IMG/VR virus record: IMGVR_UViG_3300031646_000024
Span: 1-20,126 of that record
Strand: one strand, 5' to 3'
Length of the DNA: 20,126 bases
Source: a virus
Below, one piece after another: positions 7,126-20,126 of this stretch (positions within the stretch are counted from its first letter, which is position 1; each line of letters starts with the position of its first letter). Under the pieces are notes generated by a model. The model worked only from the letters and a program-made list of their open reading frames with translations. It ran no database searches and was not told where the DNA came from. A program made the position numbers and the translations under genes.

Positions 7126-7361
7126 TGGAAGACATAGGTTACATAACAAAAATACAGAGAATAATTAAACTAAGACATGATGATATAGTTTCTTCGTTAG
7201 CTTCAGGAGGGGTTGACACTATGGAAAAATATCAGTATATGATAGGGCAGATACGAACGTATCAATATATGAGTCAGGAGATATCCAGCCTGCTAGATAA
7301 AAAGGAGCAAAAAGACAATGAAGGAACAATTATTAACCTCAACACAAAACTCAAAGATTGA
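7125..7361 (+). CDS. Small helical hypothetical protein
   Basis: A 78-aa protein starting at the TAATG overlap with the preceding micro-gene. It is predicted to be almost all helix, with the pattern LRHDDIVSSLASGGV followed by MEKYQYMIGQIRTYQYM and SQEISSLLDKKEQ. That layout suits a short coiled-coil protein. I recall similar proteins of 70-80 residues in marine phages, near head-assembly genes, without known function. Its last 44 bases overlap the start of the GroES-like gene in another frame, and the ribosome site of that gene lies inside it. Confidence 0.75.
   Translation: MEDIGYITKIQRIIKLRHDDIVSSLASGGVDTMEKYQYMIGQIRTYQYMSQEISSLLDKKEQKDNEGTIINLNTKLKD
7302..7307 (+). promoter_or_regulatory. 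Ribosome binding site of the GroES-like gene
   Basis: AAGGAG ten bases before ATG 7318 and lying inside the preceding gene. It supports the start at 7318 despite the 44-base overlap. Confidence 0.7.
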
Positions 7362-7755
7362 GTTACCTAATAAAACATTAGTAGGTATTAAGAACAAAGA
7401 TAAAAAAGAAATTAAATCAGATTCAGGTAAGTTACCACAACCAACAGGTTGGAGAATTTTAGTCTTACCATTTAAACAAAAAAGTAAAACTAAAGGCGGA
7501 GTTCACTTAGCAGATACAACAATAGAAAGATCACAAGTAGCGTCAACTTGTGGTTTAATACTAGAAATGGGACCTCATTGTTATGATAAAGAAAGATATC
7601 CTGAGGGTCCATGGTGTAAGAAAGGTGATTGGATTATCTTTGCAAGATATGCTGGATCACGAATTAAAATAGACGGGGGTGAGGTAAGACTTTTAAATGA
7701 TGATGAAGTTTTAGCGACCGTGGAAAACCCTGAAGATATATTCCACGAATTTTAA
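7318..7755 (+). CDS. GroES-like co-chaperonin
   Basis: GroES (Cpn10) rings cap the GroEL folding chamber; phage versions such as T4 gp31 adapt host GroEL to fold the capsid protein. This 145-aa protein has an N-terminal extension (1-40). A Cpn10 core follows: PTGWRILVLPF, a flexible region with the mobile-loop-like GGVHLAD (about 60-66), then TTIERSQVASTCGLILEMGP, KKGDWIIFARYAGSRIKIDG and a LLNDDEVLATVENPED end. These match the usual order of GroES (strand, mobile loop, GxVxxxGP, GDxVxxxxYxG, ixx.dilA). An insertion of about 12 residues with two cysteines follows the GP turn. No GroEL is encoded here, so it would work with the host chaperonin. The adjacent scaffold and nearby capsid genes fit that role. 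Confidence 0.85.
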   Translation: MKEQLLTSTQNSKIELPNKTLVGIKNKDKKEIKSDSGKLPQPTGWRILVLPFKQKSKTKGGVHLADTTIERSQVASTCGLILEMGPHCYDKERYPEGPWCKKGDWIIFARYAGSRIKIDGGEVRLLNDDEVLATVENPEDIFHEF

Positions 7756-15399: not shown

Positions 15400-15415
15400 G
15401 GAGTAACTCCTTATG
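15395..15415 (+). promoter_or_regulatory. Perfect inverted repeat covering stop, ribosome site and start codon
   Basis: The ten bases 15395-15404 (CATAAGGAGT) are the exact reverse complement of 15406-15415, around one central A. In RNA this would fold as a nine-base stem with a UAA loop. It holds the upstream stop (15397-15399), the AAGGAG ribosome site and the downstream ATG (15413-15415). The next gene's start would be hidden unless a ribosome finishing the upstream gene opens the stem. Confidence 0.7.
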
Positions 15416-16189
15416 GCTAATACTTGGAATCAATCCGGCACACTCTGGGGACAAAACTCTTGGGGCCAACAAGCTCAAGTTGATCTTTCCTTAACAGGAG
15501 TCTCAGCAACAACATCACTTGGAACTTTAAGCGCATATGTACAACCTGGCTGGGGTACACTTGACTGGGGTGAAAATAGTTGGGGAAATGTTGATTCAGC
15601 TACAGAAACTTTAACAGGACTTTCGGCAACATCAGCGGTAGGTGCAATTACACCAGCAGATGTAATGGGCTTGACAGGAGTTTCATCTACTCTAGCAGTA
15701 GGCTCTTTAAGTTTTACCATAGATGCTACATTTACTTTAACTGGGCAGTCAGCTCTTTCAGTAGTAGGTTCAATTATTCCTGAAATAGGTATTCCTTTAA
15801 CAGGACTTACAGCAACATCCGTAGTAGGTGCTCCAACTATAAGATCATATTATACAGAATCATTAACAGGACTTGGAGCAACAAGTGCTACAGGTTCATT
15901 AACTATTTCATCTAATCCAACAATTGCACCTACTGGAGTTTCAGCAACTTCTGCTGTAGGAGCTATTACACCCGCTAGTGTAATGGGACTAACAGGTGTA
16001 GCAATGACTTCTGCTGCAGGAATTATTGTTCCTGCCAATGTAATGGGATTAACTGGAATATCAGCAACAGTTAGTTTAGGAAATGTAGCACCATTAGGAT
16101 ATCAAGATATTACAGCTACTCAAAGTGCTAGTTATAGTAATGTAGCAGCTACCCAAAGTGCTAGTTATATTGATGTTAATAGTGTATAA
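15413..16189 (+). CDS. LTG-repeat structural protein
   Basis: A 258-aa protein made of repeats. Two Trp/Gly patches (LWGQNSWGQQ at 11-20 and GWGTLDWGENSWG at 46-58) precede nine copies of an LTGxSATSAVGxI-type unit. The copies start near residues 27, 67, 87, 109, 129, 151, 173, 192 and 212, a period close to 20 residues. Copies 2, 7 and 8 also carry an ITPAxVMG-type extension. It ends with two 11-residue repeats (TATQSASYSN, AATQSASYID). It is low in charge and probably beta-rich, perhaps a fibrous surface or tail protein. I recall WG/LTG-repeat proteins near tail genes in marine phages; the function is unknown. Its start is in the hairpin at 15395-15415. Confidence 0.75.
   Translation: MANTWNQSGTLWGQNSWGQQAQVDLSLTGVSATTSLGTLSAYVQPGWGTLDWGENSWGNVDSATETLTGLSATSAVGAITPADVMGLTGVSSTLAVGSLSFTIDATFTLTGQSALSVVGSIIPEIGIPLTGLTATSVVGAPTIRSYYTESLTGLGATSATGSLTISSNPTIAPTGVSATSAVGAITPASVMGLTGVAMTSAAGIIVPANVMGLTGISATVSLGNVAPLGYQDITATQSASYSNVAATQSASYIDVNSV
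16114..16179 (+). repeat. 33-bp tandem repeat at the end of the LTG-repeat gene
   Basis: Two 33-base units starting with AGCTAC at 16114 and 16147. The first 23 bases differ at one position (T/C) and later bases diverge. They encode the two 11-residue ATQSASY units of the preceding protein. Confidence 0.7.
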
Positions 16190-16256: not shown

Positions 16257-17279
16257 ATGACATCAACGTACACACCTCTCGGCGTAGAATTAATGGTGAC
16301 TGGCGAAAACGCTGGTACCTGGGGAACAAAAACAAATACAAATTTAAACATTATAGAACAGATTTCGGGTGGTTATATGACACAAGCCATAGCGGGATCA
16401 GGTACAGACTCACCATCAACATTTGTTAAATCAGACGGAGCAGTAGGTGCTCTTGTTGCAAGTAGAGTAATTGTGCTTACAGGTGCTTTAACAGGTGCAA
16501 GAATTATTACTTTCCCAGTACTTACAGAAAATTTTTATCTTATTAAAAACTCAACAACAAATGCACAGACACTTCAGTTAAAAGCAGCTACAGGTTCAGG
16601 TGCAACCGTTACTTGGGCTACTGATGATAAAGGTTGGAAGCTAGTTTATTTTGATGGTGTAGCAACTAACACAGGTGTTTATGATGTAGGTTTTGGAGCA
16701 GCAACTGCACCAGGTGGTTCAACTACACAAATTCAATATAATAATTCAGGAGCTTTTGGCGGAGATGCAAATTTAGTATGGGCAGCAGGAACTGGTTTAA
16801 ATATCGGGACACGGAAAGAACTTAGACTTCAAGATAGTTCTGGTGGCCAGTATATAGGTTTTAGAGCAAACGCAACTACTACTAGTTATACATTAGATAT
16901 GCCAGCAGCCGTTGCTTCTTCTAATGATCAAATATTAACATCAACAACAGGCGGTGTTTTATCATGGGTGGATAACTCCGGTGGAACAGATTGGCAAGCA
17001 ATTAAAACTACAGGATTTACTGCTGTAGCTGGACAAGGATATTTTTGTAATACAACTTCAGGAATTTTTACAGCAACATTACCCGCAGGTACATTAGGTG
17101 ATGAAGTTACATTAGTAGATTACGCAGGAACATTCGATACAAATAATTTAACAGTAGCACCAAATGGTTCAGAAAAAATTCAAGGTGTTGCGGCAAGTTT
17201 AACCGTTTCAATAGAAAGAGCAGGCTTAACACTAGCTTACGTAGATGCTACACAAGGCTGGCTATTAAAGGATAAATAA
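16257..17279 (+). CDS. Tail-fibre-like protein
   Basis: A 340-aa protein with GAAGGA before ATG 16257. Residues 1-40 (TYTPLGVELMVTGENAGTWG, then TNTNLNIIEQISGGY) are a common N-terminal module of phage tail-fibre or tail-associated proteins. After that it is Thr/Gly/Ala-rich with strand pattern. One segment, GGSTTQIQYNNSGAFGGDAN, and a later LDMPAAVASSNDQILTSTTG also recur in fibre proteins. The C-terminal domain (TTGFTAVAGQGYFCNTTSG, then FTATLPAGTLGDEVTLVDY and ERAGLTLAYVDATQGWLLKD) is a small beta domain often found at fibre ends. It is the first gene after the promoter at 16196 and leads into the kelch genes. Probably attaches or presents host-binding parts; receptor unknown. Confidence 0.8.
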   Translation: MTSTYTPLGVELMVTGENAGTWGTKTNTNLNIIEQISGGYMTQAIAGSGTDSPSTFVKSDGAVGALVASRVIVLTGALTGARIITFPVLTENFYLIKNSTTNAQTLQLKAATGSGATVTWATDDKGWKLVYFDGVATNTGVYDVGFGAATAPGGSTTQIQYNNSGAFGGDANLVWAAGTGLNIGTRKELRLQDSSGGQYIGFRANATTTSYTLDMPAAVASSNDQILTSTTGGVLSWVDNSGGTDWQAIKTTGFTAVAGQGYFCNTTSGIFTATLPAGTLGDEVTLVDYAGTFDTNNLTVAPNGSEKIQGVAASLTVSIERAGLTLAYVDATQGWLLKDK

Positions 17280-17282
17280 TCC

Positions 17283-18272
17283 ATGGCTACTTATAAAGGT
17301 ATAAAAGGCTTTGAAGTTCAAAGTCTTGCTTCAGACCCAACAACAGCGTCTTCAGTAGGACAACTTTATTATAATACTACAGGTAGTGTTTTTAAATATG
17401 GCACTGTTGGTGTGGGAGCTTGGGCATCCGGTGGTGCTTTAAACACTGCTAGAACTGGTGTAACAGGATTTGGTCGTACTCAATCAACTGCTGTTGCGGC
17501 TGGTGGTACTGCTCCTGGTGGAATTTCAAATGCAACAGAAAAATACGATGGAACATCATGGGCTAATTCAGGAAATTTAAGTGCCGCAAAGGAAACTGCA
17601 GCATCTTTTGGAACATCAACAGCTGGAGTTATTGCTGGGGGTAATGTTCCACCTTATACAGCCGTAGTAGAAACTTTTAATGGTTCTGTTTGGAGTACTT
17701 CTCCAGCCACTATGAATACCGCTAGAAATTTAATAAAAGGAGCAGGACTATCTACAGCTGGATTAGTTGCTGGTGGAGGAACAACACCAGGATATGTAAC
17801 TAACACAGAATCATTTAATGGATCGTCATTTGCTAATGTTACAGGTACAAATACAGCTAGAGCTAATTATGGTATGGCTTCACAAGGAACACCCACAGCA
17901 GGATTAGTTTGGGGTGGTGGGGTTGCTCCTACTGGACAAACTGTAAATACAGAAAAATATAATGGTTCATCTTGGACTGAGGTTGCAAACTTGAATACTT
18001 CAAGAGAGGGATTTGCTAATGCAGGAACACAAACTTCGGCTATAGGTGGAGGCGGTTCTAATCCAGGTGGAAATGTCACAAATACAGAATCTTGGGATGG
18101 TACTTCATGGTCAGAGGTAGGAGAGATGGCTACTGCAAGAACTCTTATGGGATCAGGTGGATTAGGTTCTGGTTCAATGACTGGATTTGGTGGAGCAGCA
18201 CCTTCACATTCTGCTTTAACAGAAGAATGGACAGTTCCAGATATAGCAATTAAAACAGTGACAACAAGTTAA
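17283..18272 (+). CDS. Kelch-like beta-propeller protein 1 (putative host-recognition protein)
   Basis: A 329-aa protein. Residues 1-50 are a shared N-terminal module (TYKGIKGFEVQSLASDP, GQLYYNTT, GAWASGG). It is followed by six blades of about 46 residues with the pattern TARxxxxxxGTxTxxxxxGG and then (Y/F/W)(N/D)GxSW; these six-residue motifs sit at 88, 132, 178, 226 and 271. The sixth blade ends ALTEEWTVP. Paired glycines and the terminal Trp match kelch-type repeats, so a closed six-bladed propeller is likely. No catalytic residues are seen. AAAGGAT lies before ATG 17283. With two more related genes downstream it is a candidate receptor-binding or adhesin-like virion protein. Assignment as propeller is firm, function inferred. 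Confidence 0.85.
   Translation: MATYKGIKGFEVQSLASDPTTASSVGQLYYNTTGSVFKYGTVGVGAWASGGALNTARTGVTGFGRTQSTAVAAGGTAPGGISNATEKYDGTSWANSGNLSAAKETAASFGTSTAGVIAGGNVPPYTAVVETFNGSVWSTSPATMNTARNLIKGAGLSTAGLVAGGGTTPGYVTNTESFNGSSFANVTGTNTARANYGMASQGTPTAGLVWGGGVAPTGQTVNTEKYNGSSWTEVANLNTSREGFANAGTQTSAIGGGGSNPGGNVTNTESWDGTSWSEVGEMATARTLMGSGGLGSGSMTGFGGAAPSHSALTEEWTVPDIAIKTVTTS
18216..18239 (+). repeat. 24-bp exact repeat, first copy (end of kelch gene 1)
   Basis: The 24 bases here are identical to 19522-19545 in kelch gene 2. Both encode the LTEEWTVP end. Exact identity while most of the genes have diverged suggests strong selection or recent exchange. Confidence 0.8.
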
Positions 18273-18305
18273 AGATAATTTATAACAACAACAAAGGAGA
18301 AAACT

Positions 18306-18590
18306 ATGGCATATAAATATTGTACAGCGGACAACTGGGGGAAAGATTTCTTCACTCATGATGAGAGATTAAAATTTTATCTATCTGGTCAACCTGGAAA
18401 TGTTTGGGTTGTAGGCGATAATTCAGATGGTGAGGCGTGGATAACAAAAGTTTCTGGTGTTTCTAAAACAAAAGCAGAAGCACAAGCTATTGTTGACGCA
18501 GAAGTAGTAATAGCGAAAGCTAACTATGATTCACAATCAGATGAATATAAAGCCAATCACTCTAGTCCAACTGATATTACATTACCGTAG
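18306..18590 (+). CDS. Small conserved protein between the kelch genes
   Basis: A 94-aa protein with AAAGGAG before ATG 18306. It starts YKYCTADNWGKDFFTHDER, has a compact middle (PGNVWVVGDNSDGEAWITKV) and then a helix (KTKAEAQAIVDAEVVIAKAN) and ends SSPTDITLP. The mixture of a small alpha/beta part and a helix is compatible with a fibre-assembly chaperone or a small virion protein. I recall similar proteins beside kelch-repeat genes in marine phages, but no proven role. It has no membrane segment. It is the only non-propeller gene within the array. Confidence 0.7.
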   Translation: MAYKYCTADNWGKDFFTHDERLKFYLSGQPGNVWVVGDNSDGEAWITKVSGVSKTKAEAQAIVDAEVVIAKANYDSQSDEYKANHSSPTDITLP

Positions 18591-18603
18591 GGAAAATTAA
18601 TTA

Positions 18604-19581
18604 ATGTCCACATATAAAGGAATTAAAGGTTTTACTGTTCAGACCATAGCTGGAGATACAAGTCCTCTTAATGAAGGACAAGTTTATTACAATTCATCTA
18701 CTAATTTATTAAAAGTAAGTAAAAATGTTTTAGGTACTGGTGCTTGGTCGTCAGGTGGAAATGTAGTTAGAGCTAGATCAACATTTGCTTCAGCAATTAA
18801 CGCAACACAAACAGCAGCTTTATTTGCTGGTGGTTATCCAGCTCCTGCTGGAGAATCTGAAGAATATAATGGAACTTCTTGGGCTGAGGGTAATAATTTA
18901 AACCAAGCAAGACATGGTCTTATAGGTATGGGTACACAAACCTTAGCTTTAGCGGCAGGTGGAAGTGGTACTTATACTGCAAATGCAGAAACTTATAATG
19001 GCACAAGTTGGGCTACATCAACAGCTATGCCAGCTGGTAAAAATAATAGTTCTTCTGCAGGATTACAAACATCAGCTTTAATTTTTGGTGGCTTACTAAA
19101 TGGAGGAGCAGGAGCTTATGATGCTAATACTTATTTATGGAATGGAAGTTCATGGACAGAAGTAGCAGATATGAATACAGCTAGATCGGCTTTAAGTAGT
19201 TTTGGATTATCTAATGCGGCAATAGCTGCTAGTGGATATGCTCCAGGAGTTGTAACTAATGTAGAAAGCTACAATGGAACATCATGGTCAGAAATTACAG
19301 AATTAGGTGTTAGTAGAGCCTCAATGGCTGGTGGTGGAACACAAACATTAGGAATTTTTGGCGGTGGTTATGTAGGTCCACCATTTGTAGCAAACACAGA
19401 AACTTGGAATGGAACTGCTTGGGCAGAAGTAGCAGAGATGGCTACAGGTAGAGCTTCGGAAGGTTGTGGTTTAGGCACAGCTTCTTTAGCAATCGCTGGT
19501 GAAAATCCTGGTTATTCCGCATTAACAGAAGAATGGACAGTTCCACAAACAATAACTAATGTAACGGTATCAAGTAGTTAA
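18604..19581 (+). CDS. Kelch-like beta-propeller protein 2
   Basis: A 325-aa paralogue of the gene at 17283. It has the same N-terminal module (STYKGIKGFTVQTIAGD, GQVYYNSS, GAWSSGG) and six blades. The Y/W-NG-T/S-xW motifs are at 88, 131, 179, 223 and 268, and it ends SALTEEWTVPQ. The blade faces differ strongly between the two proteins while the frame is kept, as expected if loops bind different targets. A single cysteine lies in the sixth blade. No strong ribosome site precedes ATG 18604 (only GGGAAA), so it may be made at lower level. Function as in the first copy is inferred. Confidence 0.85.
   Translation: MSTYKGIKGFTVQTIAGDTSPLNEGQVYYNSSTNLLKVSKNVLGTGAWSSGGNVVRARSTFASAINATQTAALFAGGYPAPAGESEEYNGTSWAEGNNLNQARHGLIGMGTQTLALAAGGSGTYTANAETYNGTSWATSTAMPAGKNNSSSAGLQTSALIFGGLLNGGAGAYDANTYLWNGSSWTEVADMNTARSALSSFGLSNAAIAASGYAPGVVTNVESYNGTSWSEITELGVSRASMAGGGTQTLGIFGGGYVGPPFVANTETWNGTAWAEVAEMATGRASEGCGLGTASLAIAGENPGYSALTEEWTVPQTITNVTVSSS
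19522..19545 (+). repeat. 24-bp exact repeat, second copy (end of kelch gene 2)
   Basis: Identical to 18216-18239. Same position in the paralogous gene, coding for LTEEWTVP. Confidence 0.8.
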
Positions 19582-19582
19582 T

Positions 19583-20126
19583 ATGGCAACATACAAAAAT
19601 ATAAAAGGATTTAAAATTCAAAGTTTAGCAAGTGATCCACCTGCTCCTATTGCAGGACAGGTTTGGTATAATACAACAACAGACGCATTAAAAGGTCATG
19701 GAGTGTTAGGTGCAGGTACTTGGGCTTCAGGTGGAAATATGAATAGTGGTAGAGAGCAAGGTTCTTATTTTGGATCACAAAGTGCAGGAGTTGCCGCTGG
19801 AGGAAATGTTGCAACTAATGTTGAAGAATATAACGGAACTGCTTGGTCAAATGTAAATGTCATACCAGCAGGCGGTGTTTCTGGAGCTGGTACTGGTCCA
19901 CAAATAGCAGGAATAATATATGGATGGGGTCATGGTCCTAGTGGTGGATCTACAAATAATACTACAAATTATGATGGTACAAACTGGACCGAAGTAGGAA
20001 ATTTAAATACAGGACGAAATGTTGGAGGATGTGCTGGAGGAGTACAAACATCTGCTTTATATGCAGGGGGTACACCACCTACTATAGCTAATACTGAAAT
20101 TTGGAATGGAACTGCTTGGACAGAAG
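19583..20126 (+). CDS. Kelch-like beta-propeller protein 3 (3' partial)
   Basis: The frame opens at ATG 19583, one base after the preceding stop, and runs off the window after 181 codons. It has the same N-terminal module (TYKNIKGFKIQSLASDP, GQVWYNTT, GTWASGG) and three blades so far, with YNGTAW at 83, YDGTNW at 130 and WNGTAW at 174. Blade 2 is unusual for its Gly/Asn/Thr-rich insert (GHGPSGGSTNNTT). The rest of the gene and any C-terminal LTEEWTVP lie beyond the window. It is a third paralogue and shows that the array continues. Confidence 0.85.
   Translation, partial: MATYKNIKGFKIQSLASDPPAPIAGQVWYNTTTDALKGHGVLGAGTWASGGNMNSGREQGSYFGSQSAGVAAGGNVATNVEEYNGTAWSNVNVIPAGGVSGAGTGPQIAGIIYGWGHGPSGGSTNNTTNYDGTNWTEVGNLNTGRNVGGCAGGVQTSALYAGGTPPTIANTEIWNGTAWTE

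Follow-up and report, generated by a model that had tools for sequence, protein, structure and literature searches.

A position-tagged array of kelch propeller genes, probably a three-slot receptor-binding module of marine phages

Ackermannviridae such as CBA120 and S117 carry several receptor-binding genes per phage (TSP1-4). The position of each protein is set by its conserved N-terminus, while the variable heads are exchanged and the conserved 5' ends have been proposed as recombination sites (PMC11414711, PMC8825819). Kelch proteins are known from giant phages, and CBB_552 is a virion protein (PMC5259590). In marine phages, pelagiphages included, host-recognition genes vary between relatives within metaviromic islands, and the accessible text of that study has no mention of kelch and no three-slot architecture (PMC3909814). 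Our literature search found no description of kelch proteins in pelagiphages or as phage receptor-binding proteins.

Here we describe an array of kelch genes in marine phages, probably a receptor-binding module with three slots and interchangeable heads. It resembles the Ackermannviridae tailspike complex in combining a position-specific conserved N-terminal part with a variable head, a likeness seen here in the sequence pattern. The parts differ: in the Ackermannviridae, XD/TD gp10-like domains serve as anchors and tailspikes as heads, whereas the kelch array has an address of about 20-46 residues plus a tail, a kelch head and usually three slots, between which the heads move. No Pfam match to XD/TD gp10-like domains was found in the kelch genes, and the gene upstream of the array gave only a weak T4 gp9/10 N-terminal match, below the cut-off. 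A tailspike head was not found in the array, AlphaFold2 and Foldseek indicating a kelch fold instead. No homology to the tailspike complex was found; we regard it as the best functional parallel, the kelch array apparently being built from unrelated parts. The giant phages (CBB_550, 552 and 554; PhiPA3; PS119XW) likewise have kelch propellers, several per genome, but these share about 10-20% identity with the array in fold matches, and neither a slot-tagged triad nor propeller exchange is reported for them in the available portion of PMC5259590.

The window, that is, the whole stretch of DNA analysed, is a 20,126-base IMG/VR virus record, probably a fragment. Its capsid protein is 82% identical to that of Pelagibacter phage HTVC027P, and its portal and adaptor match SU10-type families; the source is an HTVC023P/027P-type pelagiphage contig, and the phage behind it probably infects SAR11. 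Pelagiphages are among the most abundant marine viruses. At the right end of the window, the upstream fibre gene is followed by kelch gene A, a 94-aa gene (small gene 'o'), kelch gene B and the start of kelch gene C, the slot class of each kelch gene being defined by its position relative to the small gene. The features are as follows.

16257..17279, + strand: upstream tail/fibre gene, 340 aa (phrog_31104, E 5.9e-81)
16953..17400, + strand: conserved island 1 (blastn), upstream C-terminal domain and tag A
17283..18272, + strand: kelch gene A, 329 aa, slot class A
17283..17402, + strand: slot tag of gene A, aa 1-40 (class readable in the first 46 aa)
17403..18212, + strand: propeller of gene A, aa 41-310, the exchanged unit
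18213..18269, + strand: C-tail of gene A, aa 311-329, opening the next conserved island
18216..18239, + strand: 24-base repeat, copy 1, coding for LTEEWTVP
18219..18641, + strand: conserved island 2 (blastn), C-tail A, small gene and tag B
18306..18590, + strand: small gene 'o', 94 aa, conserved array partner
18604..19581, + strand: kelch gene B, 325 aa, slot class B
18604-18723, 18724-19521 and 19522-19578, + strand: tag, propeller and C-tail of gene B
19522..19545, + strand: 24-base repeat, copy 2
19525..19696, + strand: conserved island 3 (blastn), C-tail B and tag C
19583..20126, + strand: kelch gene C, slot class C, cut by the window end
19583-19702, + strand: tag of gene C, with the '..LKG' signature

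A preliminary description, made from the sequence alone, had recognised three adjacent kelch paralogues here, and this was borne out: two are complete and one is cut, all are on the + strand, and an N-terminal module is common to them (70-79% nt identity to the first copy over 47 nt). As it also stated, the LTEEWTVP tail is found in both complete copies, and their blades are not alike (A and B have 46% aa identity). The conserved 94-aa gene between copies 1 and 2 was absent from that description. Elsewhere in the window, a tail-region protein built of TLTGLSATSSVG-like repeats (15413-16189) is variable between relatives, and a phage-encoded GroES co-chaperonin (7318-7755; phrog_3188) is annotated in related isolates too.

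Genes A, B and C match phrog_27227 (E 1.9e-71, 4.5e-66 and 2.3e-34, respectively), a family of unknown function whose second half is matched by the single-propeller proteins. Solved kelch structures were matched by A (E 7e-6), by B (E 2.6e-12) and by the family profile (E 1.5e-23). Pfam kelch models matched below the curated cut-off only (window best Kelch_3, 15.6 bits versus a cut-off of 22), and Kelch_6 matched 1 of 42 members (E 0.0052). The AlphaFold2 model of copy A, built with 42 sequences, had a pLDDT of 90.7 and a pTM of 0.85, with residues 1-6 alone below 50; its best PDB matches by Foldseek were KLHL12 and Keap1 (E about 1e-15, TM 0.67/0.77), and designed six-bladed kelch proteins were also among its neighbours. 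The propeller fold proposed from the sequence is thus predicted for copy A. With five motif blades and a half blade at either terminus, the propeller is most likely six-bladed; many relatives, about 610 aa long, contain two fused propellers. With a search pattern that itself requires the double glycine and spaced Tyr/Trp motif, 1617 blades were parsed from 530 proteins. The blade motif positions were conserved, partly by construction of the pattern, and the loop after the double glycine, which in Keap1 lies on the ligand-binding face, varied in sequence and in length (3-22 residues, within the limits of the pattern). Omega was 0.65 for this loop and 0.50 for the rest of the propeller, compared with 0.30, 0.17 and 0.32 for the small, downstream and upstream genes. 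The loops stand above both framework and neighbours, but a value of 0.65 does not prove positive selection; the propeller omega is relaxed or diversifying, and diversifying selection on the loops is suggestive only.

The small gene and the C-terminal domain of the upstream gene are conserved with the array. In the upstream gene, this domain, at about aa 231-340 ('...DATQGWLLKDK'), is 68-89% identical at the amino acid level to its counterparts in the closest relatives (L087, L088 and L010), compared with 24-48% for aa 1-230. When this gene was used as the seed of a viral scan, without any kelch sequence, a kelch gene came next in every readable locus except L247, where the visible next gene is a 123-aa end fragment. 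In the isolates HTVC023P (L084:24459-28680) and 023Pt_psg01 (L083:20162-24369), the corresponding place, downstream of the capsid genes, is taken by three tandem glycine-rich paralogues. Their start sequences differ by position (MSKIEVD, MTS-IKVDNI and MSEVKVN), and they share a domain like the C-terminal domain of the window's upstream gene; their heads are glycine-rich, ending in IRYKFQ or IRYRFQ, and are not kelch. The small gene is 83-91% identical in DNA between the window and near relatives, and at least 401 relatives were found among the 600 pattern matches listed from the IMG/VR scan, so that the family is widespread in viral contigs. Its protein was modelled by AlphaFold2 with a pLDDT of 92.9; no PDB fold match at E <= 0.001 and no Pfam match above the cut-off were found. 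A likely relative in SAG-MED28 (L173:7357-7713, identified by eye) precedes a different fibre gene, so the small protein may be a general tail partner.

To survey copy number, we ran viral scans with three seeds (gene A, the small gene and the upstream gene) and one genome scan, and the figures describe the sample formed by the best 80 loci of each viral scan. Complete sites, defined as lying between the upstream gene and the conserved downstream gene, numbered 88 after removal of redundancy, with three kelch genes in 71, two in 11 and one in 5; when the split third gene of L161 is counted as one, three genes are present in 72 of the 88. More than three were found in 0 of these 88 sites. The suggestion that the locus multiplies host-binding genes was therefore rejected: copy number does vary between relatives, from one to three, but the mode is three and there is no expansion. 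In the smaller sites one or two classes are missing (A-o-B, A-o-C, o-B-C, A-o and o-B), which looks like the loss of single slot classes from a fixed set of up to three. Two gene orders were present, A-o-B-C and C-A-o-B, and by sequence comparison the second looks like a rotation of the first: its tags scored best with first-order C, A and B in 21/27, 22/27 and 13/27 cases, respectively, while the reverse test was ambiguous for A and B. In L161 (12065-13931), a SAR11 single-cell contig, the third kelch gene lies in two reading frames, owing to a frameshift or an assembly error.

The three kelch genes form distinct classes with class-specific ends. Using HMMs of protein segments with 8-fold cross-validation, the first 46 aa placed genes in the correct slot in 126/132 and 80/81 cases (95-99%), and the last 24 aa did so in 67% and 81%. 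An earlier tag classification on a smaller set (60/79 and 33/34) is replaced by these values. Propeller segments gave the correct slot in 28-46% of cases, near the one-third expected; the exception was aa 46-92 of second-order genes (60%), for which their longer tags are the probable cause. When labels were shuffled within genomes, the tag signal stood about 25 and 23 null standard deviations out, whereas the propeller signal was 0.001 identity, with 44/2000 and 387/2000 shuffles equally high. The propeller thus carries little or no class memory, and the anticipated pattern of constant ends around a variable middle is found, with slot specificity kept over 71 complete arrays. A whole-protein tree of single-propeller genes clustered by position as well.

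Comparison of related phages revealed that propellers are exchanged as units between slots and phages. Between the window and L087, L088 and L010, tag A is 72-75% identical at the amino acid level (81-85% nt) and C-tail A 63-89%, while the A propeller between them is only 36-41% identical (53-55% nt), in line with the expected variation between relatives. In blastn, island 1 is 85% identical to L010 and L088 and 77% to L087; island 2 is 83% identical to L088 and L010, its homology to L087 continuing through propeller B at 81%; and island 3 is 77% identical to L010. The propellers between the islands stand at paralogue level relative to all three, except for the B propeller held in common with L087 (67% aa). 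In near-relative pairs, chosen by a small-gene identity of at least 75%, same-position propellers were mostly less than 50% identical, compared with an average of 0.62 for tags, and 20 pairs combined shared and replaced propellers. The small protein is identical between L041 and L073, whose A propellers are 40% identical. Conversely, matching propellers occurred under different slot tags: the slot C propeller of L138 matches the first propeller of the second-position gene of L155, which has a B-type tag (96% nt over 766 bp), the C propeller of L028 has its match in L046 B, in the second of the propellers there (91% nt over 834 bp), L119 C matches the second propeller of the first gene of L089 (91% aa), and L034 A matches L004 B (76% aa). 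These transfers support recombination, proposed earlier, as a source of variation.

The preliminary description had also pointed to the 24-base exact repeat (18216-18239 and 19522-19545) as a possible aid to recombination between copies. The repeat is real, but it is weak evidence for a special site. Genes A and B use the same codon for 60% of identical amino acids, so that full codon agreement along a given run of 8 identical residues has p about 0.017, and the 24-mer was carried by 2 of 351 genes, a number equal to the window's own two copies. No trace of gene conversion, sought as excess synonymous identity at C-tails within genomes, was seen (codon identity 0.56 in the tail and 0.57 in the body). 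A diversity-generating retroelement was set aside, reverse transcriptase (PF00078) being found in 0 of 16 contigs, all of them fragments. With regard to an invertible tail-fibre locus, which would have alternative genes in opposite orientation between inverted repeats, the kelch copies are on one strand in the arrays read (later array counts took + strand genes only), and the inverted repeats in the window are imperfect ones only.

Under the reading that we favour, the short N-terminal tag of classes A, B and C, and less so the C-tail, is specific to the place in the set. Each tag most likely docks its protein at its own tail site, near the C-terminal domain of the upstream fibre; the proteins would be part of the virion, with molecules on the host surface as the most likely ligands of the propeller loops. 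Since the propeller is flanked on both sides by conserved tags, tails and small gene, it could be replaced while the address is kept; homologous recombination between co-infecting phages or between slots would be the putative pathway. The class-specific ends could also persist by linkage to the conserved flanks alone. Whether the module amounts to combinatorial display, in which three tags correspond to three virion sites and phages with different capsid types take their propellers from one common pool, we consider evenly balanced; if it does, whole propellers move between slots and genomes, altering recognition of SAR11 and perhaps other marine bacteria. The array offers concrete candidate receptor-binding proteins for pelagiphages, shows how variation could arise without loss of assembly and makes slot specificity testable.

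The strong mode at three genes and the class-specific tags would also suit an obligate heterotrimer or three-part tip, in which the tags would direct assembly of the proteins with one another and not docking at separate sites, and the three tandem paralogues with another head at the corresponding place in HTVC023P and 023Pt_psg01 point the same way. We consider this unlikely, because any one class can be missing, as in the A-o-B, A-o-C, o-B-C, A-o and o-B sites, and because heads are freely mixed, and a slot may have either one or two propellers whatever the other slots contain. The name galactose oxidase has been given to several kelch proteins of phages, and the propellers might be enzymes (e.g. 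a glycan hydrolase or oxidase) or decoration proteins instead of receptor-binding heads; this seems quite unlikely, since the closest folds belong to kelch domains that bind proteins and ligands, not to enzymes, and loops so variable in length (within the pattern limits) and sequence are at odds with a conserved active site.

Two further explanations would turn the swaps themselves into something else. Nearly all relatives are metagenome contigs, in which the conserved ends could produce some chimeric joins, and short-read assemblers might in general have fused sequences of different phages where tags and tails are conserved; repeats do break up assemblies, and long reads contain kelch repeats 9 times as often as assembled data sets do (PMC9238414). 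Yet the conserved islands differ by 7-25% at the DNA level between most of the phages compared, so exact shared words are short, and the slot specificity of the 71 complete arrays, with a pattern recurring in many contigs and samples, makes this very unlikely as a general account. Least probable, by a little, is an ordinary tail family diverging by point mutation, in which apparent swaps reflect fast divergence under weak constraint and class-specific ends reflect simple descent: although the propeller omega (0.5-0.65) does exceed that of neighbouring genes, several pairs contradict it, with recent transfers between slots, at 91-96% DNA identity, whose edges lie at the propeller boundary, as does the identical small protein beside unrelated propellers. 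The tag, propeller and tail borders also allow these kelch genes to be recognised and sorted in viromes, kelch repeats being under-represented in assemblies.

With tblastn at the limits used, relatives of gene A, gene B and the small gene were found in none of 50,697 deposited phage genomes, and one second-order gene gave a marginal match (E 0.03) to a Paenibacillus phage; the set looks like a changeable host-recognition kit absent from the deposited genomes searched. A contig listed with the Pelagibacteraceae single-cell genome AG-422-J20 also carries the three-kelch set, which there adjoins a capsid gene 88% identical to that of Pelagibacter phage HTVC033P, and the window capsid protein has no match in that record. 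This contig connects the set with SAR11 and with two types of phage, the kelch set occurring with HTVC027P-like and HTVC033P-like capsids. HTVC033P itself has other genes at that place, as judged by gene sizes and names. In a contig binned as Flavobacteriaceae (L163:6717-8565), three tandem paralogues of ~200 aa lie downstream of the kelch array, with kelch-tag-like starts (MADYKDIK, MANYKDIK and MATYKSI) and a different head. In other relatives, e.g. L005:6749-10280, a run of genes of about 170-220 aa follows the conserved downstream gene, and isolates annotate 2OG-Fe(II) oxygenases at a similar place.
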